DNA from: Muribaculaceae bacterium
GTDB lineage: Bacteria; Bacteroidota; Bacteroidia; Bacteroidales; Muribaculaceae
NCBI GenBank assembly: GCA_017396945.1
Contig: JAFQKI010000001.1
Coordinates: forward strand, 62,001 to 126,000
Direction of reading: 5' to 3'
Length of the DNA stretch: 64,000 bases
The first letter of the stretch is position 1. Each line of letters opens with the position of its first letter. This document shows, in pieces, positions 1 through 55,875 of this stretch. Below the pieces are notes generated by a model. It was not told where the DNA came from. It ran no database searches and saw nothing but the letters and a program-made list of their open reading frames with translations. The translations under genes and the position numbers were made by a program.

Positions 1-284
1 GTCGCTTTAGCACTCTACCCCCCGACAATGGACGAGCAGCCCTTAAATGCCGGTATACTTGAGCTTGCAACCCATAAGACGTGCGGCGCATGATATCGCT
101 ATCACACCCGGTGAGCTCTTACCTCACCTTTTCACCCTTACCTTTTCAGGCGGTTATTTTCTGTCACGCTACTCTACCGTCGCCGATAGCTTCCCGTTAA
201 GAAATATGGTGCTCTGTGTTGCCCGGACTTTCCTCCCACCCCGCTATATGTGAGTGAGCGACGAGCCGTCCGACTGCCTTTGTG
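1..284 (-). ncRNA. rnpB: RNase P RNA (type A), 3' end cut by window edge
   Basis: This is the catalytic RNA of ribonuclease P, which removes 5' leaders from pre-tRNAs. On the minus strand it carries the conserved early block GAGGAAAGTCCGGGC (around 236-222), then GACAGAAAATAACCGCC and the strongly conserved GGTAAGGGTGAAAAGGTG block, in the order expected for bacterial type A RNase P RNA. The 3' part runs off the left edge, so only about the first 280 bases are present. The 5' end is inferred from a -7 element at 289-296. The plus-strand reading frame inside it (47-253) is an artefact. Confidence 0.93.
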
Positions 285-288
285 ATTG

Positions 289-296
289 CAAAGTTA
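289..296 (-). promoter_or_regulatory. -7 promoter element of rnpB
   Basis: On the minus strand this reads TAACTTTG, matching the Bacteroidetes -7 consensus TAnnTTTG. It lies just upstream of the inferred RNase P RNA 5' end. No convincing TTG was found at the usual -33 distance. Confidence 0.6.
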
Positions 297-382
297 CAAC
301 ATTCCCACCTAATTTACTCCGGTTGGCACATGAATTTTATTTATTTATCGCAAATTCACAAAAATGATAACCTATAAAAAAG

Positions 383-422
383 AAATAAACCCCAAAGTTT
401 AGACAAACTTAAGGGTTTATTT
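383..422 (-). terminator. intrinsic terminator after the 450-2339 gene
   Basis: The arms AAATAAACCC (383-392) and GGGTTTATTT (413-422) are perfectly complementary and enclose a second stem (AAGTTT 395-400 with AAACTT 405-410). It sits about 28 bases downstream of the stop of the minus-strand lipoprotein gene. The A/T-rich arms supply the U-rich tail. Confidence 0.65.
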
Positions 423-449
423 TATTGGCAATTTTATCTTTTGGGCTAC

Positions 450-2339
450 CTATTTAGTTATATTATCAACATCTTCAACCAACCGCCAAGTACCATCCTT
501 TTGGATATAAAGCCCGAGACCTATATGCGTACCATCGGTGCGAGCCAATGCAACAACATAGTCGTTAGTAGTTGTTGTGCCATTATATTGGTTCACAAGC
601 GATTCAATTGCATTTCGCCATATACTTTCGGCAGTTTTATCAAGATCAGACTCGATTTGGGCACCAACTTTAAGTGTTTCGTCGCTAAGAGCTCGATAAT
701 TGACATTCGACATTAAGTACGCTTCAAGATTACTCCACTCAGCACCATCTGCAGTTCCGCCGTAACCGGGAAGCGGATATGGCGAGTATTTTTCAAAATA
801 GCGATAAACCTTCGGCAATGTAATCGTATGATAGTCATAATAGTAATCCCAATGGAGTATTCCTTCCCAAATTCCGGCATACTGACTTTGAACCGTTTGT
901 TTTATATCCCATTGCAGTTTCACATCATTTTTCCCGAAGGATTTGGTATCACTAACCAAAAATGTAACCGCCTGATCAGTATGACAATATTCATGTACGA
1001 TATCAGGATAATCATTGACCACGGCATTAAATCCGGCACGACAAGTATAAATATCCAAATCAACATTATATACCCATTCGGCATGCTTGTTGGTATTACT
1101 GAAAGATATTGGCATCTCAGCATGATTGAAACTTATTGTCGTTGTTGGCAGTGTGACACCCATACTCAACCCTAATGAAAGTCCCGGGGGATCAGAAATA
1201 TCAACTCCTCCGGACGCACCAAGGCTAATCTGCGCGGGATAGTGTGTATTGTTATATTGTCCATTTGTCATAGGTAGTGGAGCGACTTCCTCTACTTCAA
1301 TTGTAGATTCCGGTATATCAATCAAATACAACTTACTTTCCGGTCCAATATAACAACCTCCGGTATATTTATAATTATACGCTAAATGCTCATATATATA
1401 TACATCATCAACAAATGTCTTATCGGCAGGAAAATCCTCATACATATTAATGTCATATATATCACATTGCTTATCCACATCATACACTCCATAAATTGTT
1501 ATTTTATACTTTGCATCTACCGTTGTTGGACCGGGAATTTTATCAGCGTCTTCGCAATACTCCTTAACCCAGTCATGGGTAACAGTAATTGGTCTATAAA
1601 ACGTCAATTCTGCAGGTTTAACACAATAGGAATCTGCACGGCTGAATGCAACATGACGAGACTGACCAATAACCACATTATCAGACAGCCATTCAGCCAA
1701 ATTATCAGCCACACGCCCCCTCAGATAGTCATTTAATTCTGCGATATGTGGAGTTGTTGCTACAGTTTCCTTTGTTGACTCATTGTCTGTTGTTCTCACA
1801 ATAACACTCTCATAGGGACTAGAAACAGCATCCATCCTTTCGTGATAGAATGAGGTTCCATCAGCACGTGTAGCATAAATATGAACATCTTTAAACTGCA
1901 CCAGATCTTCTACTGAGGGACTTCCGGCATAATCCGACGATTGTAGTTTTTTGATTAAAGTATATGCCTCTGCTCCAGGATTTATAAATACAACTATTTT
2001 ATTGTAATCCCACATCTTTTTCAGTGTCTCATATTCTGCTGTATTTAGAATAGAATGTGCACGACTCTCGTCAAGCACAACGACATCCGCATCATCAACC
2101 AATTCGACAGTTGTATTGATAATGCGCTTGGTCAAATAACCTACCACATTATCACTATTAGGCTGAAGAATAGCAACTTTGCCATTAAAAACATTTTCAA
2201 TCTTGTCTTCAGTTGGCTGATTATCTACATAATGCTTGTCGTAGTCATATTCTGTAGAAGATGGTTCTTCATCGGAACACGAAAAAAAAGAAACGCTCAA
2301 AACTCCTACAAACAAAAAAATAAACCACTTTCTTATCAT
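450..2339 (-). CDS. large surface lipoprotein of unknown function
   Basis: A 629-residue protein beginning MIRKWFIFLFVG with a lipoprotein signal peptide ending in SFFSCSDEE. The acidic run after the cysteine resembles the Bacteroidetes signal that sends lipoproteins to the cell surface. I do not recognise the fold. The first ~200 residues read like a small alpha/beta domain; the middle (around residues 330-450) is rich in Gly, Ser, Thr and aromatic residues and looks beta-rich. An upstream in-frame start at 2450 is rejected because a -7-like TATCTTTA (2390-2397) lies inside that extension and the signal peptide begins at 2339. The gene is separated from the operon upstream by 128 bases, so it may be its own unit. 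Coding is certain, function unknown. Confidence 0.85.
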   Translation of the reverse strand: MIRKWFIFLFVGVLSVSFFSCSDEEPSSTEYDYDKHYVDNQPTEDKIENVFNGKVAILQPNSDNVVGYLTKRIINTTVELVDDADVVVLDESRAHSILNTAEYETLKKMWDYNKIVVFINPGAEAYTLIKKLQSSDYAGSPSVEDLVQFKDVHIYATRADGTSFYHERMDAVSSPYESVIVRTTDNESTKETVATTPHIAELNDYLRGRVADNLAEWLSDNVVIGQSRHVAFSRADSYCVKPAELTFYRPITVTHDWVKEYCEDADKIPGPTTVDAKYKITIYGVYDVDKQCDIYDINMYEDFPADKTFVDDVYIYEHLAYNYKYTGGCYIGPESKLYLIDIPESTIEVEEVAPLPMTNGQYNNTHYPAQISLGASGGVDISDPPGLSLGLSMGVTLPTTTISFNHAEMPISFSNTNKHAEWVYNVDLDIYTCRAGFNAVVNDYPDIVHEYCHTDQAVTFLVSDTKSFGKNDVKLQWDIKQTVQSQYAGIWEGILHWDYYYDYHTITLPKVYRYFEKYSPYPLPGYGGTADGAEWSNLEAYLMSNVNYRALSDETLKVGAQIESDLDKTAESIWRNAIESLVNQYNGTTTTNDYVVALARTDGTHIGLGLYIQKDGTWRLVEDVDNITK

Positions 2340-2467
2340 ATCGTAATTTTTATTGGTTATAAATTTATATTTTGTTTTACAACTTTGCGTAAAGATACAA
2401 AAACTATCCAATACAATCTTATTTTTCAGCAAAAAATAATTTATAATCAACGATACACCTTATGCAT

Positions 2468-3292
2468 CTAATTTGAGATAATGGAGCCGGTGGAGAAGAT
2501 ATGGATATGTGGGGACGAGGCTGACAGAAGTTGCTTCGCTCGGTCACTGGTGCAATGACCGGTATATATTTCGGTATCGGGATAATTATCGTTCAGGTCT
2601 TGAATAAATTGTGAGACCTCTCGTTGAGTCGCGTTGCAATCGACAAAATGCAGTCCACCAACAAAGGCACTCACTTTTTCCACAGCCGTAAATTCTCGGC
2701 ATGAGTTCATTATATTAATCGCTCCGCAATGAGAGCATGGCGAAATAACGACCAATCCCCTACCGGTTTTTATCGCTAAAGCCAATTCATGAGAAAAGTC
2801 ATCTTTATGAAGAGTTTCCCTTACTCTTGTAAATAGGAAATTATTTCCTTTTGGTGTGGGGAAATTGCGGTTTTGTGTTCGCACCAACGCAATGTCATCA
2901 CTCAGCCAACAACTATCTTCAACCATAACCATGCGGTCAAGATAAGGTTTACAAGCATCAACATCGGTACTGATTTCTCGACAATCTCCGTGACGAGTGG
3001 AAAAATATCGCTCATTAAGTACGTCATGAGATAAATAAACCTTTGCGGTGGAATTTATCTCAAGGAAACGAGGTAATCCACCACTATGGTCATTATGACC
3101 ATGGGATAGAACCGCAAAATCGATTTTTTTCAAATCCACTCCAAGGACAACAGCATTGTCAATAAACGCGTCTGACTTCCCCATGTCGCAAAGCAGATGC
3201 CGACCATTAATTTTAATCAATATCGACAATCCATGCTCACTAACCAAATCAGGGTGTTCGCAGACATTATCAACCAGCGTTATCAGCTCCAT
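2468..3292 (-). CDS. metallo-beta-lactamase-fold hydrolase (COG1237-like)
   Basis: A 274-residue cytoplasmic protein with no signal peptide. The metal-binding motif HGHNDH is at residues 64-69, followed by later conserved-type elements CSHCG (186-190), GGLHF (212-216) and TGHC (244-247). This pattern fits the metal-dependent hydrolase group related to the enzyme making the ribofuranosylaminobenzene phosphate of methanopterin; in bacteria the substrate is usually unknown. Its start overlaps the end of the acyltransferase gene by 23 bases, which suggests translational coupling as the last gene of the eight-gene operon. Family assignment is firm; the reaction is not known. Confidence 0.85.
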   Translation of the reverse strand: MELITLVDNVCEHPDLVSEHGLSILIKINGRHLLCDMGKSDAFIDNAVVLGVDLKKIDFAVLSHGHNDHSGGLPRFLEINSTAKVYLSHDVLNERYFSTRHGDCREISTDVDACKPYLDRMVMVEDSCWLSDDIALVRTQNRNFPTPKGNNFLFTRVRETLHKDDFSHELALAIKTGRGLVVISPCSHCGAINIMNSCREFTAVEKVSAFVGGLHFVDCNATQREVSQFIQDLNDNYPDTEIYTGHCTSDRAKQLLSASSPHIHIFSTGSIISN

Positions 3293-4412
3293 GCTTCACA
3301 AATAGATTGCTGATTTTGGGCAGTCGTGGGCTTATATACTTTGAATAATAATAGTAACCAACAAGCGGGATACCGACTCCGGCTATAGTGTACCATATCC
3401 AAAAATAGTCATCGGCCGAATAATCATGTATCACCATGTGACAACTTATCTGTCGAGGGTCCAAATCATATATCCAGATTTTTATCAGACTAACCAATTT
3501 ATAGGCTGCAACATGCCAAACAAATACATATAGCGTGTGATTACCACAATAGATAAGACCTCTTACAAGCCGTGAGTTGTTGAATTTTGCCAGATACACC
3601 GAAAAATTATATGTCATAATCCAACCGGCAATACCTGTCAACGGCAATGTGAATGGGTCTTGTAACAATGGTCGGATATTCATTCCTGAGAATTTAAGCC
3701 ATGCCGCAAGAATTACAATTACTGCGCCAACAAATGACCAGATGAGATTATGTCCGATACAATGCTCGTATTTGCGATACAATACCCCTATCGCAAAGAA
3801 CATCAACCCCATTGTGTCACGAAATCCACCTTGCGGGAAATTAGGGATAAACATCTTTTTGTATGCCAAAATAAAACCGATCCCCAACCCAATGAATGCA
3901 ATTATTAAAGGTATCGTTGTCGTTTTATCTTTAAGCCACTTGATTTTATTTAAAAGCAAATAGAATATCAAGAAGACGATACTTACAACAAACAAAGCCC
4001 TAAAGAACCAAAATGCACCGGCAAGAAATACATCATAGCCACTCATTGAAAAAATTATGCTTTGGAATTTATTCCAAAATTGCTCTGTTGTATAAGGATA
4101 GATTACGCCTCCTGTCCAATTGCCATAAACCGAGTTATACACCCCAATGTCAAACAACCAATTGTGTATAAACAAGAAAAACAAGCTATATTTAAGAAAC
4201 GGCCAATATATACCCTTAAATCGTTTCTTAATAAAAACAAATGGTTTCTCTATCGCCTTATGACTAAAAAAGTATCCTGCCGTAATAAAAAACAACGGCA
4301 TATGAAACATATAAATGGACCGGTTTAATAATCCGGGCATTTCGGCATGACCTATCACCACTAAGATGATAGCTATCCCTTTAGCTATCGAAACCGCGTT
4401 ATTACGTTCCAT
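3270..4412 (-). CDS. membrane acyltransferase, family 3 (O-acetyltransferase-like)
   Basis: A 380-residue polytopic membrane protein with about ten hydrophobic segments. The N-terminal KGIAIILVVIGHAEMPG with a histidine at residue 22, followed by IYMFHMPLFFITAGYFF, is typical of acyltransferase family 3 (OafA / fucose 4-O-acetylase type). Members move acyl groups, usually acetyl from the cytoplasm, onto surface sugars. It starts 9 bases after the PCMD lipoprotein gene and overlaps the hydrolase gene by 23 bases, so it is probably expressed with the surface-protein genes. Acetylation of a glycan that those proteins bind or display is an inference from context. Confidence 0.88.
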   Translation of the reverse strand: MERNNAVSIAKGIAIILVVIGHAEMPGLLNRSIYMFHMPLFFITAGYFFSHKAIEKPFVFIKKRFKGIYWPFLKYSLFFLFIHNWLFDIGVYNSVYGNWTGGVIYPYTTEQFWNKFQSIIFSMSGYDVFLAGAFWFFRALFVVSIVFLIFYLLLNKIKWLKDKTTTIPLIIAFIGLGIGFILAYKKMFIPNFPQGGFRDTMGLMFFAIGVLYRKYEHCIGHNLIWSFVGAVIVILAAWLKFSGMNIRPLLQDPFTLPLTGIAGWIMTYNFSVYLAKFNNSRLVRGLIYCGNHTLYVFVWHVAAYKLVSLIKIWIYDLDPRQISCHMVIHDYSADDYFWIWYTIAGVGIPLVGYYYYSKYISPRLPKISNLFVKHGADNAG

Positions 4413-4421
4413 TTACGACAA

Positions 4422-5999
4422 TTAATAATCATATTCCAATTGCAACTCATCGACATAAAGCAATGATCCATCGCCTCCGGTAAAGAAATCACCATATTTA
4501 CTTGCCGATGCAACTACAACAATATATCGCGGAATGCGTTGAGTTGTACGATAATCCAATTCTACTTCAAATGGTATATATTCAGGCACACTCTCCCCAT
4601 ATTGTACCTTCCCATAAGCAATTACATGGTCATCATTTTCGTCAAATAGTTGACGATTAGCCGGATTGGTACGTATTTCAAATGGTTCTGCCCAATCGGC
4701 AAGAGCAACCCAAACGATAGCAGTATCAGGACGGCCCTTTAAATGTGTAAAATCTGATGATGAATGGCTTATTGGAGCACAATTATACTTTAGGTACCCC
4801 TTCAGTTTGGTAGGTCGTTGCGTAAATTCACGACCAAAAGCAAGGATTCCATTTGTACCATCGGTTTTCACATATGAACCGGTAAATAGATTGCCAGCTG
4901 CAAGTTTACCGATAGACGCAATCCCTACAAACTTAGTTTCTAACTTAGCCGATAGTCCAACTCCAAATGGAGTATCATCTGATGGCACACTATTGCTTTG
5001 TCCCAATGTAGTTGCACCTTTATTGCCGGTATCCCAATAAGACGCATCATCTCGCGCCCATGGGCACCAAACTTTACCATCCAACCACCAATCATCGAGA
5101 GATGGATTTACGAGTTGCGGTTCACTACCGGTAGTAAAAGAGATAGCAACTCCGGCTTCCCCTTCAGTCGTCGCACGAGCCTCATACTGAGTGCCGGGTT
5201 GTAGATGAATTATGCGAGCTGTAAAGTTTCCCCCATCATGAGTAATCCAGTCAGCCGGAACAGCAATCCATTCTGATGCGCCTAACTCGCGATATTCTAC
5301 TCCATTGATTTTACCGACTTCAGCAACACCATAAACCCATGCAACGCGAGACCAAGCATCAACACGTTCGGTAGTAACCGAACTCTCGGTAGCAGTTACA
5401 TATATAGTCCATGTCGATGTGCGACCATAGTCTGAAACCTCAACTTCAACCGGCATTGAAAAATCAACCTTATTCCCCACCAAATCGGGAGTAACAACAG
5501 AACGTTCAGATCCTAATTTCATGGTCAGCACCTCAACCGATTTGATGTCCACGACATCAGAAACATATGCGACAACACGACGCGACGCAACGTCAATAGT
5601 TGATACACCAATTTGGTTGGCAATGGTAAAATAGCGTTGTATCTCCTGAACAGCGGTTATAGTCCATTGATATTCTTGATACAACTTCAACATTACAGGA
5701 TAAGGTGTTGCCAAATTTAATCCCGATTTAATATCTTCGCCTACAACCGACGCGCCCTCACTAAGAGTATAATCAGTGATGTAAACATTCTCAATATCAA
5801 CAGTATCACTGAGATAAAGAGTCACATTGCGTTTAAGCGTATCAATCAACGCCGGTTTTGTTTCCCCTTGAGCCTCAATTGATGTAAAATTGGGTTGAAT
5901 GCGGGGATAAGGTATGTCATTTTCTATACAACCCGAAAATGCAATTGTCATCAAACCGCAAAGTCCAACCACTAATATATATAGATTTCTGATTTTCAT
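4422..5999 (-). CDS. PCMD-type surface lipoprotein (putative carbohydrate metabolism domain)
   Basis: A 525-residue lipoprotein; the signal peptide begins MKIRNLYILVVG and ends FSGC, followed by IENDIPYP. Residues ~30-220 read as Ig-like or bacterial-surface repeats, then a fibronectin-like segment, then a C-terminal beta-sandwich (about 310-525) starting NPSLDDWW and ending LLYVDELQLEYDY, which is typical of the PCMD domain of Bacteroidetes. The domain is thought to bind glycans. A longer start at 6029 is rejected because it would place ten residues before the signal peptide. It is 16 bases from the barrel gene upstream and 9 from the acyltransferase downstream. Confidence 0.8.
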   Translation of the reverse strand: MKIRNLYILVVGLCGLMTIAFSGCIENDIPYPRIQPNFTSIEAQGETKPALIDTLKRNVTLYLSDTVDIENVYITDYTLSEGASVVGEDIKSGLNLATPYPVMLKLYQEYQWTITAVQEIQRYFTIANQIGVSTIDVASRRVVAYVSDVVDIKSVEVLTMKLGSERSVVTPDLVGNKVDFSMPVEVEVSDYGRTSTWTIYVTATESSVTTERVDAWSRVAWVYGVAEVGKINGVEYRELGASEWIAVPADWITHDGGNFTARIIHLQPGTQYEARATTEGEAGVAISFTTGSEPQLVNPSLDDWWLDGKVWCPWARDDASYWDTGNKGATTLGQSNSVPSDDTPFGVGLSAKLETKFVGIASIGKLAAGNLFTGSYVKTDGTNGILAFGREFTQRPTKLKGYLKYNCAPISHSSSDFTHLKGRPDTAIVWVALADWAEPFEIRTNPANRQLFDENDDHVIAYGKVQYGESVPEYIPFEVELDYRTTQRIPRYIVVVASASKYGDFFTGGDGSLLYVDELQLEYDY

Positions 6000-6015
6000 A
6001 AAAATTTGTTTTTTA

Positions 6016-6849
6016 TTAGATGTGAACACTCAATCCAAAGTTGATATTCAAAAGGTTAAATCGGAAATTGGCACCGGAAGAGAAACGCGATCCATCTTCT
6101 ACGCCATTGGTTTTCTGCTTTTCATTTGTAAAATGAACTCCGAAAACTCCAAATGAGAGATTAAAACTGACGTTCTCTACCACAAAAACCGATACTCCGG
6201 GACTGAAATCAAGACTCGCTTTTGTCATTGTGGTACGAGTGCTACGCATTTCACTATTATAGGGACGGCGAAATATCGACTCACCCCAACCAAACGATAA
6301 ATCTACATCATTAAAGAATCCGAAACGTCTTTTGGTATCAAGCCCTATATATTTGCGATAAAACAATGACACGCCATAATTTTTTGAATCATAACTGATA
6401 TCGCTCAATGTGAAATTTAAATCCTCGTCAAAATCAAACGACAAGCTACCTATGCTCGCACTTGCATTTGTATAACTGAATTTTACGCCGACCGATTGGT
6501 TGTTTTTAAAGAAATATGCTACAGTAGGTTTTATTGTATAAATTTTACCTCCAAAATCAAGGTCTTGCAAAACCGACAAAATTTGGACATCATCGGTATC
6601 AAAACTACCACAAGATGCTGTCAGTCCAAATGCCCAGCCTCCTTTAGGGATATATAAATAATTAAACAATCCACGGTCATAACGACTATAATTCTTCTCA
6701 GGAATAATGTTGCTTACAGTATCATTTCCTACAATAACCATCTGATCAAAAGAAGGTTGTTCGGATGTAACCGACAGAGTTTCCACAGCGTTAACGTTGA
6801 CTGTTGCCAACATTGAGAAAATAGCGATTAATATATTGAGTCTCTTCAT
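6016..6849 (-). CDS. outer-membrane beta-barrel protein, copy 2 of a tandem pair
   Basis: A 277-residue exported protein with a signal peptide (MKRLNILIAIFSMLATVNVNA). The mature part alternates hydrophobic and polar residues in short amphipathic strands and ends LNINFGLSVHI, as outer-membrane barrels do. It shares the IPKGGWAFG / KPTVAYFFKNNQSVGVKF pattern with its neighbour (IPKGQWITG / SPMLMYSFKDDMAIGGRF), so the two are paralogues from a tandem duplication. The ATG at 6849 lies 5 bases after the upstream stop. Specific role unknown; an anchor or pore for the operon's lipoproteins is a guess. Confidence 0.82.
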   Translation of the reverse strand: MKRLNILIAIFSMLATVNVNAVETLSVTSEQPSFDQMVIVGNDTVSNIIPEKNYSRYDRGLFNYLYIPKGGWAFGLTASCGSFDTDDVQILSVLQDLDFGGKIYTIKPTVAYFFKNNQSVGVKFSYTNASASIGSLSFDFDEDLNFTLSDISYDSKNYGVSLFYRKYIGLDTKRRFGFFNDVDLSFGWGESIFRRPYNSEMRSTRTTMTKASLDFSPGVSVFVVENVSFNLSFGVFGVHFTNEKQKTNGVEDGSRFSSGANFRFNLLNINFGLSVHI

Positions 6850-6854
6850 AATAA

Positions 6855-7595
6855 TCAAAGATAGAATGACACACCAAAAGATATTGAGAATAAATTCAAG
6901 CTCAAACTCGCGGAACTGCTATTCCGTTCAGAGCGATATATTTGATCGGTAGTTGCTTTTGTATGAGAATAGCCAAATCCAAGGACTCCGACATTAACTT
7001 CAAGAGCTGAATAGTTATTCAAAAACATCATAACACCGGGGGCTACACCAAGGTGAGCATTAAAATTACGTTCAAAGGTTCCCGATAAGTCATCACCGCT
7101 ACCATTACAAATTTTTGTTTCACCTCCGCCAAGTTCCAAGCGTGTTTCTGCAAAGAAAGCAAAACGCTTGCTACTACCCATACTTATATAATTGCGGAAA
7201 GCAGCTGTCACCGAATAGTTGTGGCTCAAACAATAGAGATTATCCACCGAGTAGTCAGTTTCAGAGTCTATTACTACTCTTCCCTCATCAAGTTTTGACA
7301 TTTGGCGGGAGTAGGCAAATCGACCACCAATTGCCATGTCATCTTTAAAACTATACATCAACATAGGACTAACTTTAAATGTATAAGAATCTCCCGACAA
7401 ATCCTCAATTATCAAAAACTGATAATTATCCTGATCGTTATGAGAATAGCTAACACTTATACCGGTAATCCACTGCCCTTTGGGGATAAATGGCACTTGT
7501 TCAAGATCTCGTTTGAATCGTTCTTGCGCATCTGCATAAAACGCAGAGCATAACACAAGCGACAATACTATAAATATATTTTTTATCGTTTTCAT
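6855..7595 (-). CDS. outer-membrane beta-barrel protein, copy 1 of a tandem pair
   Basis: A 246-residue exported protein with signal peptide MKTIKNIFIVLSLVLCSAFY and cleavage near ADAQ. Alternating amphipathic strands and a terminal SISFGVSFYL indicate an outer-membrane barrel. It is a paralogue of the next gene in the operon, with conserved elements at the mature N-terminus (IPKG) and near the end (LNLFSISFGV versus FNLLNINFGL). It starts 12 bases after the DUF4493 lipoprotein gene. It is short for a transport barrel (8-10 strands by eye). Confidence 0.82.
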   Translation of the reverse strand: MKTIKNIFIVLSLVLCSAFYADAQERFKRDLEQVPFIPKGQWITGISVSYSHNDQDNYQFLIIEDLSGDSYTFKVSPMLMYSFKDDMAIGGRFAYSRQMSKLDEGRVVIDSETDYSVDNLYCLSHNYSVTAAFRNYISMGSSKRFAFFAETRLELGGGETKICNGSGDDLSGTFERNFNAHLGVAPGVMMFLNNYSALEVNVGVLGFGYSHTKATTDQIYRSERNSSSASLSLNLFSISFGVSFYL

Positions 7596-7607
7596 TCCTA
7601 CTTTGTT

Positions 7608-8759
7608 TTATTCGACCACCTCTATAGGTTTTATTATCAAATCCAATGTCTCAGAGCGGCTTAAGCCATCTATGTCGACAGCTGTTATCACAATTGTATA
7701 CTCCCCTGCCGGCAACAAATTACATAATTTGGCACTTATATTCAACACAAAATTCGAGCTACCATCGTCATAAGTTTTATACACATAGTTTATTCCCTTA
7801 TGCAACAAGTAATCGGCTTGTTCATCAGCAATAGGTAACAATTCATAGCTAAGTGCGTCAAAACCAAGTTCGACAAAGCTGTCACAAGCCATTGTCACTT
7901 GCGACAACTCAACAGGAGATGTTACAATAATAGCTTTACGTCCAACTTCACCCTTTGTAAATTCTTGAGTTTGTGCTATATCAAAATCAACGCCTAAAAT
8001 AGAGGGCGCGTTATTAATTGACACATTGTGTTCCACATCAACAACAGCCTCATCAACAGTTACAATTATTTGAGCTCCACCCTCATCAGGAAGATTGCCG
8101 GTATATTTAATGTTTATACTATATTCTGTTCCACCTTTTACATTTGGGATAATCCCTTTTTTTGTAAATGGCTTACCATCAAATGTGGTCGCATTCAATG
8201 TCCAACTTAATTGCGACACATTTAGAGGCATCATGAAATATCCCTTGCGAGTATCATCGCCGTTAAATGTCAACGAGCCACGAGTATGTCCCACTACTAT
8301 TGAATAGTCTTTCAACGCATCTGTAACCTCTGCATCATATTGAACAGACGCCACAACATTGGCAATGCCACAAGTCAACTCAACAGTAGTTGTTTCACCT
8401 TTGTTAATCACAAATGACTGTTGACCTTTGTAATAAATCGCATCAAATGATGCCGGCACACTATCACCACTCCATGCTTCAACGCGATATTCGCCGGTTT
8501 TCAACCACTCTTCAGCCGGAAGATTGTCAATACCTTTATACTTGCGAATTATTCCTTTGTCATTAAACAAATATATCTCACAGCTATCGGAAAGCTCCTT
8601 AGCATCGATTGAACGAGACTCAGATGGAGTTTCGATAATGGCACGCATCATCAATTTACCCTCACCCGATAACAATGCCTCATTATCGTTGTTACATGAC
8701 GAAAACACACTTCCCGCCAACAACGCATACACACAATATCTTTTTAATTGACTGATCAT
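7608..8759 (-). CDS. DUF4493-type surface lipoprotein (third copy)
   Basis: A 383-residue lipoprotein (signal MISQLKRYCVYALLAGSVFSSC). The core around residues 35-240 matches the DUF4493 pattern seen in its two upstream neighbours: a GEYRVEAWSGD element, a segment FDAIYYKG, then VTLT-type strands (VELTCGIANVVASVQYD) and KGYFMMPL. Its ATG overlaps the preceding stop in an ATGA arrangement (8756-8759), so translation is likely coupled. The C-terminal ~130 residues look like an Ig-like beta domain (VDIDGLSRSETLDLIIKP). DUF4493 has no known biochemical function; the members are exposed Bacteroidetes lipoproteins. Confidence 0.82.
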   Translation of the reverse strand: MISQLKRYCVYALLAGSVFSSCNNDNEALLSGEGKLMMRAIIETPSESRSIDAKELSDSCEIYLFNDKGIIRKYKGIDNLPAEEWLKTGEYRVEAWSGDSVPASFDAIYYKGQQSFVINKGETTTVELTCGIANVVASVQYDAEVTDALKDYSIVVGHTRGSLTFNGDDTRKGYFMMPLNVSQLSWTLNATTFDGKPFTKKGIIPNVKGGTEYSINIKYTGNLPDEGGAQIIVTVDEAVVDVEHNVSINNAPSILGVDFDIAQTQEFTKGEVGRKAIIVTSPVELSQVTMACDSFVELGFDALSYELLPIADEQADYLLHKGINYVYKTYDDGSSNFVLNISAKLCNLLPAGEYTIVITAVDIDGLSRSETLDLIIKPIEVVE

Positions 8760-9952
8760 AACTCAGGAGCAAATAATTTAAGAGTTTTGGTGATTGATTG
8801 ACCGGTTGTATCAGTTATTGTAAGTTGGAACTGATGTTCACCGGGGAAATAAATCAATAATGACATAAATAGCGTGATATCAAACGTCATATTGGTTTGA
8901 CCAATAACAGCATCACCTGTCGGAAAGCCCAATTCATTTAATGCGCCTTCCAAATCTCCGGGATAAGCCAAGTCAAATTCCGAATCCAAACCTACATTTT
9001 GCAAATCCTCCGTCGATAATCCCTGAGAATTAATTACTACTTTAAAATTGCTAATGCCTAATGGCGCAGAAATATCAACTTTTGCAATCAAAGACTCGGT
9101 AATTTCGTTTACGCCATCAAGATTAAGAGTTTCACTTGTAATTGTCGGAGCGTTATCTTCACCTTCTCCGGGGCGGTCATCGGGCAAAACATCATCATCA
9201 CCCGGAACATCTACCTCTACATCATCATAAGAAATATCGGCGTCAATTATAATATCGGGATTAATGGCACCGGTATTCAATGAGAATGTAATAATATGAT
9301 GTTGACCTACGGCAACGTCGGCAAATGTTTTATAGAAAGATACATAACGACCATCAACAGTTCCTTCAAACGATGCTACAAGTGTTGAGCTTTGAGATGG
9401 AAGCATAAAATATCCTGCACGTTGCTCACCTTTGACATAATCCAATGTTGCGTCACCGCCAACATTTATCTTCACAATCACATCATCGCCAAGGGCAGCT
9501 GCCAACGCTTCACTATAAGCCACCGACACTTTTACATTTGACAATGTGCATGTAACAGCACCGATTTCAGTAACTTTATTTTTCTCTATTTTAAATTCTT
9601 TTGATGCAAAATAATAAGGAGTATCCCACTGCGCAGCCTCAGGATTGTGAGATTTTACTTCTATAATATATTCACCAACTTCAAATGTGGCAACTTCAGG
9701 CATTTCGCTGTATTTCCATGAAGTTACGATTTCCTGAGTCTGAGTTTTTTTCACAACAATCTCAAAATCTGACAGATCTACCGATGTACGGCTAACGATA
9801 GTCTCGGTAGCGTCAACATCAATTGAAATTGAAGCCAACGACAAGTCTCCCGTCTCTTTTAGCAATTCATTGGGTTCCCAACTTTCACTGTCACATGAAT
9901 TGAACATTACAACTGCGGTCAACGCAAGCAATATGTTATATATCTTTTTCAT
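8756..9952 (-). CDS. DUF4493-type surface lipoprotein (second copy)
   Basis: A 398-residue lipoprotein with signal MKKIYNILLALTAVVMFNSC followed by DSESWE, an acidic start suited to surface export. It shows the same DUF4493 core as its neighbours: VGEYIIEVKSHNPEAAQWDTP, YYFASKEFKIEKNKVTE, then TCTLSNVKVSVAYSEAL and RAGYFMLPS. A Pro/Asp-rich linker (about residues 235-262) joins it to a C-terminal Ig-like region ending TDTTGQSITKTLKLFAPEL. It lies 29 bases after the first copy and overlaps the third copy by 4 bases. Confidence 0.85.
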   Translation of the reverse strand: MKKIYNILLALTAVVMFNSCDSESWEPNELLKETGDLSLASISIDVDATETIVSRTSVDLSDFEIVVKKTQTQEIVTSWKYSEMPEVATFEVGEYIIEVKSHNPEAAQWDTPYYFASKEFKIEKNKVTEIGAVTCTLSNVKVSVAYSEALAAALGDDVIVKINVGGDATLDYVKGEQRAGYFMLPSQSSTLVASFEGTVDGRYVSFYKTFADVAVGQHHIITFSLNTGAINPDIIIDADISYDDVEVDVPGDDDVLPDDRPGEGEDNAPTITSETLNLDGVNEITESLIAKVDISAPLGISNFKVVINSQGLSTEDLQNVGLDSEFDLAYPGDLEGALNELGFPTGDAVIGQTNMTFDITLFMSLLIYFPGEHQFQLTITDTTGQSITKTLKLFAPEL

Positions 9953-9981
9953 ATATAAGAGTTTATTATATTTCTAAATTA

Positions 9982-11166
9982 TTATTGTTTTGGAGTTGTA
10001 TTCACTATTAAAGAAATTGTATCGCTGATCTTGTCATAACCGTCTTTTACGACAACATTAAATATCGATTGAGTTGCGACGCCATTTGTTTTAATCTGAG
10101 ATAAGAATGACGTAAAATCAATTACAGCCATTTGATCAGGATTGCTCCACAAGCCTTTAACATCTAATCCTAATGATACTAACACTTCTTGAGTTGCCTT
10201 GTCTATAGACATCAAATCAACTTCAGCCGAAAGTCCGGCAGCAGTGAGCAGTTGAGACTGATGATTAAGCACAACAGATTTCAAGCCTCCACGTGCATTT
10301 ATAGTCATCTTTACCGGTGTTGCTGATACCACACCCTCTTCCAAAGAAATAGGTTGTCCACTCCCAAAACCTTCGGTATAAACTTCAGGTGCCGGACAAC
10401 TCATTATCTCATCACTCAAATCGATAATGACATCTTCACTCGCAAGCGTATCATCAAATTTCACAATGAGTTTCGCTTGTCCCATCTCTCCATTATTCAC
10501 ATCGAGTGTCGCATGATAATGATGACGAGCAAGCGCATTTTCATTCAATAAAACTTGATAGGTTGCGGTTGCTCCACTATATTTTGTAACCGAGATATTC
10601 AACTTGATAGAACCGGGAACAAAATATGCGGCTCTTGTCTCGCTCTTGGCATAAGAAATTTTTGTACCGGTCGAAGAAACAACCGACACCGCATAATCAG
10701 TAAAAAATCCTTTAAACGCATCGGTATATCCTACCGAAACCATTGTATTAGCAAGAGTACATGTTATGTTGACTTGTGTAGTCGAAGCCTCAGTGATTTC
10801 AAACTCTTCCGAACCGTAAAAACAAGGCTTTTCAAAACCCTCATCTGACACATCGCCATAAAATGCCTCCATGAAATAAGAGCCGATTTTATACGATTCA
10901 TTTTGATTGAACGACGATAATGAATTCCACTCATTTACCAATGTTCCATCATTACTCTTCAAAGCCAACTTGAAATCATCGATTTGAGGGATATCAACAA
11001 CCGACCGACGTTCTGGAACTGTAGTAGCACTAATCACATCGGCATCCATGTCTAAATTCAGACTGATTTTGCCCTCGGCCACATTTTCAGGAAATGCAAT
11101 CTCATCAGAAGAACACCCACAGATAAATGCAGGTAACAAAAGGAATAAGAGTTTGTTTTTTTTCAT
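9982..11166 (-). CDS. DUF4493-type surface lipoprotein (first copy, operon leader)
   Basis: A 394-residue lipoprotein. The signal peptide MKKNKLLFLLLPAFICGC is followed by SSDE, which resembles the surface-export signal. The DUF4493 core is visible as KIGSYFMEAFYGDVSDEGF, PCFYGSEEFEITEAS, TCTLANTMVSVGYTDAF and RAAYFVPGS. The C-terminal part is an Ig-like region (VVKDGYDKISDTISLIVN). The start at 11166 is chosen over 11238 because the lipoprotein signal begins there. It is the first gene of the eight-gene operon and is divergent from the nucleotide-sugar dehydratase gene. A weak -7-like TAACTTTA lies about 90 bases upstream. Confidence 0.85.
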   Translation of the reverse strand: MKKNKLLFLLLPAFICGCSSDEIAFPENVAEGKISLNLDMDADVISATTVPERRSVVDIPQIDDFKLALKSNDGTLVNEWNSLSSFNQNESYKIGSYFMEAFYGDVSDEGFEKPCFYGSEEFEITEASTTQVNITCTLANTMVSVGYTDAFKGFFTDYAVSVVSSTGTKISYAKSETRAAYFVPGSIKLNISVTKYSGATATYQVLLNENALARHHYHATLDVNNGEMGQAKLIVKFDDTLASEDVIIDLSDEIMSCPAPEVYTEGFGSGQPISLEEGVVSATPVKMTINARGGLKSVVLNHQSQLLTAAGLSAEVDLMSIDKATQEVLVSLGLDVKGLWSNPDQMAVIDFTSFLSQIKTNGVATQSIFNVVVKDGYDKISDTISLIVNTTPKQ

Positions 11167-11455
11167 ATATAAAACATTGACCACAAAGAAAATAGCGACC
11201 AAATAAGCAGTTCTCATAAAAACCGCCAAATCGGTCACCTTAATTTGTTTGTAAAGTTAGTTGATTTATTTTAACTGAGACTACTTATTGCCGTTAAATT
11301 ACATTAACATCTTTTTAATTGAAACAGATTTATTCAAATTTGGAAGATTATTCCATTCATTGCGACATTAAAACATACTCAAAAATTGTTACTTCCAAAA
11401 ATTCCTATTACTTTTGTAGAAGTATTAAAATTTTGCGAGCTATTATTCAAAAAAG

Positions 11456-13459
11456 ATGAAAGCCCAATCTATATTATCAAGCATATCTACATCAGCACTA
11501 ATGCGTCTTATAATACTTACCCCTTCACCTCGGTGGGTTGTGTTATTGACCGATTTAATTATTGTTACTGTCAGTTGCATACTTACATACCATTTCAACC
11601 CATCAATTGGAGCAAATGACAGCTTTATATATTCACCAATTGTCAAAAGCGCTATTATTGTCGGCATATACTTAGCCTTCAGCATTACACTTAGAACATA
11701 CAAATACATCGCACGACTATCGGTAATTGAGGATGTCTATCGTTTAGCCCTGTTGGTATCATTGTCATCTGCGTTGCTGACTGTCATTGCTCTTATATTT
11801 GAATATGCTATCGGTTATAGATATTTCAGCATTTGGAATATCTTCACGATAGGGATGTTTACATTTGCCACAATGATGAGCATCCGATTGATTTTGAAAT
11901 ATCTATACAATCGCATTTGTGGCACTAACGCTCCTCGTAAACCGGTAATAATTTTAGGTTCCGCACTAAACTCATTCACCTTTGCAAGTGCATTAAAAAA
12001 TGAGGTTAACGGGCAATTTGAACCGGTTGCGATGCTAAGTTTATCAGATAAAGAAATCGGGTCGATTGTCAATGGCATACCAATCCTAAAATACAACCCC
12101 GACCACTTGAAAGAGATATTCCAATCATACAACTGTAACACATTGCTGTTTCTTGCGACACAGATTGAAATGATGCGCAACGGTCTTGCCGATGAATTTC
12201 TAAACAACCACATAAAGTTATTGATGTTAAATCAGGTTGAGGAGTTTGACATTAATGGATCGACCTATCCCAACCTTTCATTGCACGTCAAAAACATCAA
12301 AATTGAAGATTTGCTGGGACGCAAACAGATTGACAACGACAACCCATATATCGAGCAACAGATCACCGATCAAACGATATTGATTACAGGTGCCGCCGGC
12401 TCTATCGGTAGCGAGATTGTCAGACAAGTCGCGCAACTTAACGCCAAAGAGATCATCCTCGTTGACCAGGCTGAGACCCCAATGCATGAAATTCAAATCG
12501 AATTGGAGGAGAACTATCCGACAATGAAAACTCACTTATTCATCGGCGACATAACAAATCGCTCACGAATGGAAGAAGTGTTCAAGAAGTATCACCCGCG
12601 ATTTGTCTATCATGCCGCGGCATACAAGCATGTGCCAATGATGGAACACAACCCATCAGAAGCGATATTGACCAACGTATTCGGAACAAAGAACATTGCC
12701 GATTTATCAATAGCATACGACGTTGAGAAATTTGTAATGATTTCGACCGATAAGGCTGTAAACCCGACAAACATAATGGGGGCGTCAAAACGCATCGCCG
12801 AGATATATGTGCAATCATTGTTCCTACACAATAAAAGACGCGACAAAAAGTCCACTCAATTTATCACAACACGTTTTGGCAATGTATTGGGTAGTAATGG
12901 TTCTGTAATACCTCGTTTCCGTAAACAGATTGAGGAGGGAGGTCCTGTAACAGTTACACATCGTGAAATAATCAGATATTTCATGACCATTCCAGAGGCT
13001 TGCTCTTTGGTGTTAGAAGCCGGATGCATGGGAAATGGCGGAGAAATATATATTTTCGACATGGGTAAACCGGTTAAGATATACGACCTTGCTTGTCGCA
13101 TGATTACTCTCGCCGGATTAAAGCCCAATGAGGATATCAAAATCATTGAAACCGGATTGCGTCCCGGCGAAAAACTCTATGAAGAGCTACTCAACAACAA
13201 AGAACAAACTATTGCGACTCATCATAAAAAAATCAAAATCGCCAAAGTGCGCACCTATGAGTATGACAACGTTATCAATCATCTCAACTCATTACTTGGA
13301 TATGCCAACAAAGGGAAAATTCGTGATATGGTGACTGAGATGAAACATATTGTACCGGAATTTAAATCTCAAAACTCCCAATGGAGCGAAATCGACAAAG
13401 AGATAAACTCCGATGAACATGTAAAAGAGACCAATCCCGCTGTAAATCAGTATTTCTAA
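11456..13459 (+). CDS. membrane nucleotide-sugar 4,6-dehydratase (CapD/WbpM/PglF family)
   Basis: A 667-residue inner-membrane enzyme that most likely dehydrates UDP-N-acetylglucosamine to the 4-keto-6-deoxy sugar, the first step toward di-N-acetylated or deoxyamino sugars of capsules, O-antigens or glycoproteins. Residues ~20-150 contain four membrane segments. A first Rossmann-like region starts around 165 (PVIILGSALNSF). The catalytic SDR domain starts near residue 307 with ITGAAGSIGSE and contains AAAYKHVPMMEHNP and ISTDKAVNPTNIMGASKR, where the usual SDR tyrosine is methionine, as is normal in this family. Length is normal. It stands alone, divergent from the operon and followed by a DUF4923 gene 24 bases downstream. 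Confidence 0.93.
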   Translation: MKAQSILSSISTSALMRLIILTPSPRWVVLLTDLIIVTVSCILTYHFNPSIGANDSFIYSPIVKSAIIVGIYLAFSITLRTYKYIARLSVIEDVYRLALLVSLSSALLTVIALIFEYAIGYRYFSIWNIFTIGMFTFATMMSIRLILKYLYNRICGTNAPRKPVIILGSALNSFTFASALKNEVNGQFEPVAMLSLSDKEIGSIVNGIPILKYNPDHLKEIFQSYNCNTLLFLATQIEMMRNGLADEFLNNHIKLLMLNQVEEFDINGSTYPNLSLHVKNIKIEDLLGRKQIDNDNPYIEQQITDQTILITGAAGSIGSEIVRQVAQLNAKEIILVDQAETPMHEIQIELEENYPTMKTHLFIGDITNRSRMEEVFKKYHPRFVYHAAAYKHVPMMEHNPSEAILTNVFGTKNIADLSIAYDVEKFVMISTDKAVNPTNIMGASKRIAEIYVQSLFLHNKRRDKKSTQFITTRFGNVLGSNGSVIPRFRKQIEEGGPVTVTHREIIRYFMTIPEACSLVLEAGCMGNGGEIYIFDMGKPVKIYDLACRMITLAGLKPNEDIKIIETGLRPGEKLYEELLNNKEQTIATHHKKIKIAKVRTYEYDNVINHLNSLLGYANKGKIRDMVTEMKHIVPEFKSQNSQWSEIDKEINSDEHVKETNPAVNQYF

Positions 13460-13483
13460 AAAATATATTAAAGCAAAAAACAA

Positions 13484-14125
13484 ATGAGAAAAATTTCAAT
13501 TATCTCAAGCGTAATTATTCTTTTACTCACATCTACTAACGGATATGCGTTTGACTTGAGTTCATTGTTTGGTGGTTCAAAAGAAAATGGCTCTACAGTC
13601 GGCAGCGCAATAAGTAACATTCTCACAGATTTGACATCAACAAGCGAGTTTGACATCAACAACCTCGTTGGAACATGGAATTACTCCAGCCCGGCTGTAA
13701 ATTTCAAAAGCAACGATGTTTTGACCAACGTCGGCGGTAGTGCGGCATCAGGAGTTGTTGAAAGCAAATTAGAATCATACTATCAGATAGCCGGCATCAA
13801 TACTCTCACATTCACAGTTGATAGCAATCTAAAATTTTCGATGGCGACAAAAATAGTCACTCTCAACGGAACCATTGAAAAAGGTGAGAATGGAACATTG
13901 ATTTTTAATTTCAACGCATTTGACAAAATCAAAATCGGCAAAATCACTGCCTATGCCGAGAAATCAGGGAATAATCTCAGTCTCACATTCGACGTTTCTA
14001 AAATCATCACTATTGCAGAGAAAATATCTTCAATCGCAAATAATGACACGTTTAAAAGCGCGGTTGCCATTCTGAAAAATTATGACGGAATATATGTAGG
14101 ATTTAACGTCACCAAACAACGTTAA
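13484..14125 (+). CDS. DUF4923 family exported protein
   Basis: A 213-residue exported protein with signal peptide MRKISIISSVIILLLTSTNG and mature start YAFDLSSLFGG. The sequence LVGTWNYSSPAVNFKSNDVL, followed by GGSAASGVVESKL, is the lipocalin-like pattern of the DUF4923 family found in Bacteroidales. Function is unknown. It lies 24 bases after the dehydratase gene, probably on the same transcript, and is followed by a strong terminator. Confidence 0.82.
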   Translation: MRKISIISSVIILLLTSTNGYAFDLSSLFGGSKENGSTVGSAISNILTDLTSTSEFDINNLVGTWNYSSPAVNFKSNDVLTNVGGSAASGVVESKLESYYQIAGINTLTFTVDSNLKFSMATKIVTLNGTIEKGENGTLIFNFNAFDKIKIGKITAYAEKSGNNLSLTFDVSKIITIAEKISSIANNDTFKSAVAILKNYDGIYVGFNVTKQR

Positions 14126-14139
14126 TCGGTTTCAACCTA

Positions 14140-14183
14140 AAACGACAGAGGCGCGTCAAAAAAATGACGCGCCTCTGTCGTTT
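14140..14183. terminator. bidirectional terminator between convergent genes
   Basis: A perfect 19-base inverted repeat (14140-14158 and 14165-14183) with a six-adenine loop. Outer ends are AAA/TTT and the core GGCGCGTCA is GC-rich. It lies between the plus-strand DUF4923 gene and the minus-strand Dabb gene and can serve both. Confidence 0.88.
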
Positions 14184-14197
14184 CTATATCGTTGAGA

Positions 14198-14491
14198 TTA
14201 AAACTCGTAATCAACACATGCACGATCACCTTTGTGTCCGGCGAGCAAGCCCGCTGCGGCAACGTGTGCTGGATGTTTAGCATAAACCTCAACATCAGCC
14301 ATTGAATCTACAATAGCGGTCAAAACCACGTCCCATGTCTCAGCAGGATTTTCATTAATACCCACTTCCATCGAACGGAGCACTTCAATCTGTTCGGGCA
14401 ACGCCAATAGCGCAGCCTTGAATTTTTCGGCAACCTCACGACGCTCTGCATCGGTTCCGGTCAATTTAAACGCAACAATATGCTTTACCAT
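14198..14491 (-). CDS. Dabb family (stress-responsive A/B barrel) protein
   Basis: A 97-residue cytoplasmic protein starting MVKHIVAFKLTG with the dimeric alpha/beta-barrel pattern: MEVGINE in the middle, DVVLTAIVDSMADVEVYAKH, then HPAHVAAAG. The length equals a single Dabb domain. The function of this group in bacteria is not settled. It lies 26 bases downstream of the ABC-F gene and may be co-transcribed with it. Confidence 0.85.
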   Translation of the reverse strand: MVKHIVAFKLTGTDAERREVAEKFKAALLALPEQIEVLRSMEVGINENPAETWDVVLTAIVDSMADVEVYAKHPAHVAAAGLLAGHKGDRACVDYEF

Positions 14492-14517
14492 AATTCTTTA
14501 TATTTTATTTTGTATTT

Positions 14518-16173
<1,656 letters not shown>

Positions 16174-55792: not shown

Positions 55793-55875
55793 TCGCAACT
55801 GAAATTTAAAGAGAAATTATTATAGCGGAACCGAAAAGCTTATAGAGTAGGACTAATAAAAAAAATTATTCAATT

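Follow-up and report, generated by a model that had tools for sequence, protein, structure and literature searches.

BT2081 has a ligand pocket and a proposed catalytic pair, Asp259 and Asp338, in which Asp259 is assigned the role of nucleophile (PMC2954218). Among the matches listed for PF13201, BT_2081, BT3745 and PCMD, the BT2081 study alone dealt with these proteins, and no paper was found under the names 'PCMD domain' or 'putative carbohydrate metabolism domain'. In the Bacteroidota BAM complex, a conserved BamH N-terminus is wedged in the BamG barrel, and a lipobox cysteine followed by acidic residues is used as a sign of surface export for lipoproteins of this phylum (PMC12578637). No paper naming DUF4493 or PF14900 was found in a literature that covers few subscription articles. 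The locus compared here with these systems lies in a 64,000-nucleotide stretch, called the window below (contig JAFQKI010000001.1, positions 62,001 to 126,000, assembly GCA_017396945.1), of a Muribaculaceae genome of 1.48 Mb that is 64% complete. Eight genes, all on the minus strand and tightly packed over 2468–11166, encode three DUF4493 lipoproteins (D1, D2 and D3), two small outer-membrane barrels (barA and barB), a PCMD lipoprotein, an acyltransferase and an MBL-fold hydrolase. Comparison of gene neighbourhoods identifies the first six as an old conserved block of Bacteroidales, from which the last two are excluded. The favoured reading, held with slightly less than even confidence, is that the six are a functional unit encoding a surface ligand-capture complex, in which two paired outer-membrane barrels would most likely carry four surface-exposed lipoproteins, with the PCMD lipoprotein as constant partner.

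Conservation of the six-gene block

Three samples of relatives were compared: 80 named loci, which are the best 80 of 420 confirmed and some of which are cut by contig ends; stretches of mostly 12–20 kilobases from relatives; and 20 distant stretches. Because some genomes supplied both named loci and relative stretches, counts from these two samples overlap and are kept apart. Relatives of barA occur in 31 of 61 genomes (its own included), 30 of which also hold the second barrel, and the named relatives from the same genus are Muribaculaceae bacteria from the ruminant gut.

All three samples share a core of barrel-barrel-PCMD, and the complete order D-D-D-barrel-barrel-PCMD recurs within the window's own family and in six other families of Bacteroidales (L214–L219). 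The barrel pair is present in 76/80 named loci, with a D gene directly upstream in 34/80. The best run extends from the barrel-barrel-PCMD core by one D gene in 20 named loci, by two in 3 and by three, giving the exact six-gene order, in 9; a further 9 loci are cut or incomplete, and the remaining 39 are taken up below. Five Muribaculaceae genomes carry the D triad on a different contig from the barrels (L096–L100). Lone barrel-PCMD neighbours were found in L209 and L212, from the same order, and in L307, from another order of the class. The initial annotation had proposed a search for the full eight-gene order as a check; its first six positions are conserved among relatives, while the acyltransferase and hydrolase are missing from the named loci and distant stretches compared.

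Spacing is conserved along with order. Junctions of at most 60 bases account for 33/41 D-barrel, 81/82 barrel-barrel, 74/81 barrel-PCMD and 39/40 D-D pairs in relatives, so the tight packing of the first six genes is not a product of chance. Across 35 genomes of the family, barrels and DUF4493 occur together in 28, barrels only in 0, DUF4493 only in 2 and neither in 5 (p 6e-5; G004 and G011, missing from one of the underlying listings, are omitted). Across 198 genomes of the order, the corresponding counts are 13, 2, 6 and 177 (p 3e-14; four weak barrel matches, in G055, G188, G256 and G318 with E 3e-4 to 2e-7, are omitted). Both p-values overstate the association because the genomes tested are related. 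In a sample of 296 genomes from the phylum, DUF4493 exceeds its cut-off only in the window's own genome. Junction spacing, co-occurrence and the positional orthology described below together reject chance adjacency of the six genes.

In the window, with ATG starts for barB and the PCMD gene, the intergenic gaps are 29, 12, 5, 16 and 9 bases; D2 and D3 overlap by 4 bases, and the acyltransferase and hydrolase genes by 23. Genes, order, spacing and families all agree with the initial annotation. No SusC/SusD pair, glycosidase or regulator was found in the ten proteins scanned with Pfam and NCBIfam (450–11238 and 13484–14125), and a polysaccharide-utilisation locus, already set aside in the initial annotation, is rejected on the missing SusC/SusD pair. 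Promoter-like and terminator-like sites are no commoner in a scan of the locus than at shuffle level, and no tandem repeats were found in 1–16000.

Barrels and surface location

The barrels are barA (6855–7595, minus strand, 246 amino acids) and its paralogue barB (6016–6849, minus strand, 277 amino acids from the ATG at 6849, with a TTG at 6858 as a possible alternative start). The two are 26% identical, and 8/29 members of the barrel family weakly match the OMP_b-brl model, which bears out the initial call of two paralogous barrels. Neither matches a named family over the cut-off in Pfam or NCBIfam. A Mul1B match of the barrels, over residues 1–61 of barA, reaches E 0.015 at best, and a PDB search with the DUF4493 or barrel profiles returned only Ig/PKD pieces and chance matches.

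Copies at the same position are orthologues. A tree of DUF4493 domains from 17 triads, the window's among them, places each domain closest, outside its own locus, to one of the same position in 51/51 cases. Nearest neighbours likewise agree in 164/164 cases in the barrel tree, where 82 A and 82 B copies form separate clades. Because positional neighbours always agree, D1, D2, D3, barA and barB are five distinct old parts and not recent duplicates.

Surface export was judged by a lipobox cysteine with two or more acidic residues among the next six. D1, D2, D3 and the PCMD lipoprotein of the window carry 2, 3, 2 and 2 such residues, which suggests that all four are exposed at the surface. Among relatives with a lipobox found, the same signature is present in 20/36 D1, 13/16 D2 and 12/14 D3 proteins, where a length rule filed the 801-amino-acid protein of L104, which is D2-type, as D1 in these counts and in the domain counts. 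The cysteine is the sole invariant column among 45 chosen DUF4493 proteins.

A barrel pair with surface lipoproteins could also serve outer-membrane biogenesis or maintenance, much as the dome on the outer face of BAM does in Bacteroidota. Bacteroidota do build complexes of barrels and surface lipoproteins, and the BamH tail in BamG resembles what is proposed below for the PCMD protein (PMC12578637). The module proteins, however, match no Bam family in Pfam or NCBIfam, of which BamJ is the Bam model checked, and the barrels are missing from 7/35 family and 179/198 order genomes, some of them incomplete. With so many genomes lacking barrels, the module is not a housekeeping part, and a role in biogenesis is improbable.

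DUF4493 lipoproteins

D1 (9982–11166, 394 amino acids), D2 (8756–9952, 398 amino acids) and D3 (7608–8759, 383 amino acids), all on the minus strand, each consist of a DUF4493 domain and one Ig-like domain. They match PF14900 in Pfam with E 4e-49, 9e-45 and 1.5e-45 (154–168 bits against a cut-off of 27). The three would act as lipid-anchored bases with Ig-like stalks.

The window versions of D1 and D3 are shortened. D1 orthologues mostly have about 810–890 amino acids and end in a divergent PCMD head, and D3 orthologues, mostly of about 700–760 amino acids, also bear a PCMD head. Pfam detects a head behind DUF4493 in 4/4 D1 and 3/4 D3 relatives scanned, the D1 heads with 28–44 bits against a cut-off of 28. 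The D1 head is regarded as divergent because a custom PCMD model detects it in only 17 proteins, while Pfam scores exceed the cut-off slightly to moderately. Neither D1 nor D3 of the window matches PF13201 over the cut-off; both stop behind their first Ig-like domain, and it is to this same domain of their own orthologues that their C-terminal parts correspond. Domain swaps are rejected on these C-terminal matches, which leave shortened forms as the explanation. Short D1 and D3 proteins also occur together in L124, and short D3 proteins in L107 and L159. D1 and D3 normally bear further PCMD heads, both lost in the window genome.

D2 would be a stalk whose length has changed through tandem Ig duplication. 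Its orthologues in the same-genus loci L102, L103, L104, L105 and L106 carry 3, 2, 4, 2 and 3 copies of the Ig domain, 70 to 94% identical in DNA between copies. Because identity reaches 94%, the change in stalk length appears recent.

Stalks on lipid anchors also fit a fimbria-like or stalked adhesin, in which the DUF4493 proteins would be relatives of Mfa2 forming short stalks with PCMD tips, and the barrels export or anchoring platforms. Profiles trimmed of signal and lipobox match DUF4493 (92 sequences) to Mfa2 (9 sequences) with 45 and 84% probability depending on direction; the E-values, 2e-4 and 8e-6, come from single comparisons. The similarity hints at a shared fold but does not prove one. 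Nothing above 1% emerged from six further comparisons, which set DUF4493 against Mfa_like_1, the N-terminal part of PCMD proteins and the barrels, or from three additional controls. The 1–4 Ig copies of the D2 stalk, some of them recent, would also suit an adhesin. Trimming was applied because untrimmed profiles gave false similarity, making unrelated lipoproteins look alike: DUF4493 then matched the PCMD N-terminal part with 64–89% and Mfa_like_1 with 78–92%. Several observations count against an adhesin. The best match to the Pfam Mfa2 model, E 0.053, falls short of the cut-off and is seen in just 1/45 DUF4493 proteins, and no fimbrillin subunit gene was found among the scanned genes. Mfa2 and Mfa_like_1 genes occur in 13 and 19 of 41 relative genomes, away from the barrels, and the D paralogues are fixed at 1:1:1, unlike a repeated subunit. 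An adhesin is accordingly judged unlikely.

DUF4493 also occurs outside the module. In L207 it is fused ahead of Endonuclease I, which suggests that the domain behaves as an adaptor and not as an enzyme. The fusion adjoins a receptor-like protein, whose plug domain scores just under the cut-off, and a DUF5689 protein; the region (4238–9917 of L207) resembles a nucleic-acid scavenging locus. A DUF4493 protein in L201 (8282–9643) has a C-terminal part that reads by eye like a lamin-tail domain.

The PCMD lipoprotein

The PCMD lipoprotein (4422–5999, minus strand, 525 amino acids from the ATG at 5999) matches PF13201 in Pfam (E 9e-39, 134 bits against a cut-off of 28, for the 535-amino-acid frame), and its PCMD domain matches the solved structures 3s30, 4jrl, 4het and 3hbz. 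The conserved peptide CIENDIPYPRI at the lipidated cysteine is followed by a less conserved spacer part and a C-terminal PCMD jelly-roll. Across 82 PCMD orthologues, conservation peaks at head loops around Asp338 (SASKYGDFFTGG, 0.93) and is 0.84 in the peptide behind the cysteine, GCIENDIPYPRI, against a protein mean of 0.62; the parts between tail peptide and head loops score 0.54–0.61. Conservation of the tail at roughly the level of the ligand site suggests a docking contact. By analogy with the BamH N-terminus, the peptide would probably dock on a barrel; the middle part would be a spacer, and the head would hold a ligand in its conserved pocket.

The 39 positions of the BT2081 pocket (PMC2954218, sections 3.5 and 3.6) were mapped onto 86 PCMD genes. 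Nine residues are strongly retained: Gly148, Asn149 and Gly151 in 85 genes each, Ala197 in 82, Phe221 in 80, Ser334 in 84, Gly337 and Asp338 in 83 each, and Phe340 in 82. Asp338 is present in 13/15 D3 heads, which resemble the PCMD genes in this respect, versus 1/17 D1 heads. The Asp259 and Asp338 positions are both acidic in 2/86 PCMD genes, 0/17 D1 heads and 0/15 D3 heads, and the window protein has Ile at the first and Asp at the second. With the proposed nucleophile missing, the PCMD head does not fit a glycoside hydrolase of BT2081 type; it would hold its ligand without cleaving it by an aspartate pair. These data suggest a plausible ligand site, with a glycan as a first guess drawn from the PCMD family. 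The initial description of a surface assembly that binds or displays a glycan therefore survives as a surface assembly with a plausible ligand site, the glycan itself being held less firmly than first worded.

Several observations weigh against a capture complex built as proposed, or against its sugar ligand. The BT2081 residue is the commonest at only 14/39 pocket positions; the other 25 differ or are gaps, and many of the differing positions are themselves conserved (Tyr152 to Ala, Thr219 to Leu, Tyr261 to Trp). The Asp259 position is acidic in only 3/86 PCMD genes (Asp in 2, Glu in 1). Given the different pocket and the rarity of an acidic residue at 259, the PCMD ligand may not be a sugar. 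Only 20/79 PCMD proteins with a lipobox found carry two or more acidic residues behind the cysteine; the rest have 1 or 0, most relatives reading I-K-N-D-I-P, and surface export is therefore less clear for PCMD than for the D proteins. In 39/80 named loci the barrel-barrel-PCMD core stands without an adjacent D gene, six genomes of the order have DUF4493 but no strong barrel match, and the co-occurrence p-values are inflated by relatedness as described above.

The module could instead be a TonB-independent system that takes up a nutrient other than a glycan through the barrels. Conserved as they are, the head loops depart from BT2081 at 25/39 pocket positions, and the Endonuclease I fusion beside a plug-domain receptor in L207 implies that DUF4493 can serve uptake systems. 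No TonB-dependent receptor was found among the scanned genes, however, and the barrels, of about 220 mature residues, may be too narrow for passage of a ligand. Such uptake is quite unlikely. The favoured complex would capture its ligand at the surface.

Acyltransferase and hydrolase

The last two genes encode an acyltransferase 3 family membrane protein (3270–4412, minus strand; PF01757, E 9e-21) and an MBL-fold metallo-hydrolase (2468–3292, minus strand; PF00753, E 3e-9). According to the initial annotation, both belonged to the assembly, and the acyltransferase would modify the glycan bound by the surface proteins, so that all eight genes cooperate. The 9-base gap, the 23-base overlap and the shared strand are what speaks for such cooperation. 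At phmmer E 1e-8, no homologue of either enzyme turns up in the 80 named loci, 64 of which extend at least 1.5 kilobases beyond the PCMD gene, or in the 20 distant stretches. Hydrolase relatives occur in 25/61 genomes and acyltransferase relatives in 21/61, own and weak matches included; in barrel-bearing genomes, matches with E below 1e-50 always lie on another contig than the barrels. In 12/12 stretches around good homologues, six per enzyme, the six genes and the other enzyme are both missing from the vicinity. The genes behind PCMD vary among genomes, the largest cluster accounting for 22/74; by eye, this cluster reads as a further outer-membrane protein.

With both enzymes missing from relative loci and their homologues placed elsewhere, the comparison lends no support to a glycan acylated by an enzyme of this operon. 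The absence of a conserved neighbourhood, named at the outset as showing chance adjacency, applies to the last two genes and not to the first six. The eight-gene unit is rejected, and cooperation of all eight products is very improbable. The acyltransferase and hydrolase are probably chance or lineage-specific neighbours of the module.

Neighbouring features

Next downstream, after a 128-base gap, a separate lipoprotein outside the module (450–2339, minus strand) carries a HEYCH motif, of the HExxH zinc-binding type, and three acidic residues after its cysteine. It scores 19 bits with the BamJ model against a cut-off of 100, and of the other 60 genomes searched only 2 gave a homologue, in one case a weak one. 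On the other side lies a divergent WbpM-like gene (11456–13459, named by reading its sequence), with a DUF4923 gene behind it (13484–14125); WbpM occurs in 8/80 and DUF4923 in 30/80 relative loci. The start of the window truncates an RNase P RNA (1–277), and a DUF805b motif at 55822–55853 scores exactly at its gathering score.

Comparison with known systems

A broader proposal, offered more tentatively than the capture complex, is that the module represents an undescribed outer-membrane machine of Bacteroidales in which two barrels work with a constant set of four lipoproteins and need no TonB receptor. It would have grown from a two-gene ancestor of barrel and PCMD by duplication of the barrel and addition of three DUF4493 proteins; PCMD heads would have come to sit on a base like a fimbrial anchor, and stalk length and head number would have been tuned by head loss and Ig duplication. 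The fixed partnership with a member of a structurally known family brings DUF4493 and the unnamed barrels together as a single system open to experiment, in gut bacteria for which metagenome assemblies are the main source of knowledge. The module also offers a small model for the way in which surface lipoproteins may be fixed to barrels in Bacteroidota.

The module resembles BT2081-type PCMD proteins (PF13201; 3hbz, 3s30, 4jrl, 4het) in its C-terminal PCMD domain, several pocket residues and a signal or lipoprotein anchor. BT2081 is reported to have SusC-type porin partners (PMC2954218), whereas the partners here are the small barrel pair and the DUF4493 lipoproteins. Unlike BT2081, the module PCMD protein lacks Asp259, differs at 25/39 pocket positions and has a conserved peptide behind its cysteine.

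With SusCD, BtuBG and the BAM dome, the module shares one or more barrels encoded together with lipoproteins that carry acidic residues behind the cysteine. The putative complex differs from them in its two small paired barrels and in having neither a TonB receptor nor SusD. Mfa2 (PF08842), the anchor of the type V pilus, is similar in its lipid anchor and in a remote N-terminal profile similarity to DUF4493 that stays below the Pfam cut-off. Unlike the type V pilus, the module has no fimbrillin subunits and instead possesses Ig and PCMD parts.

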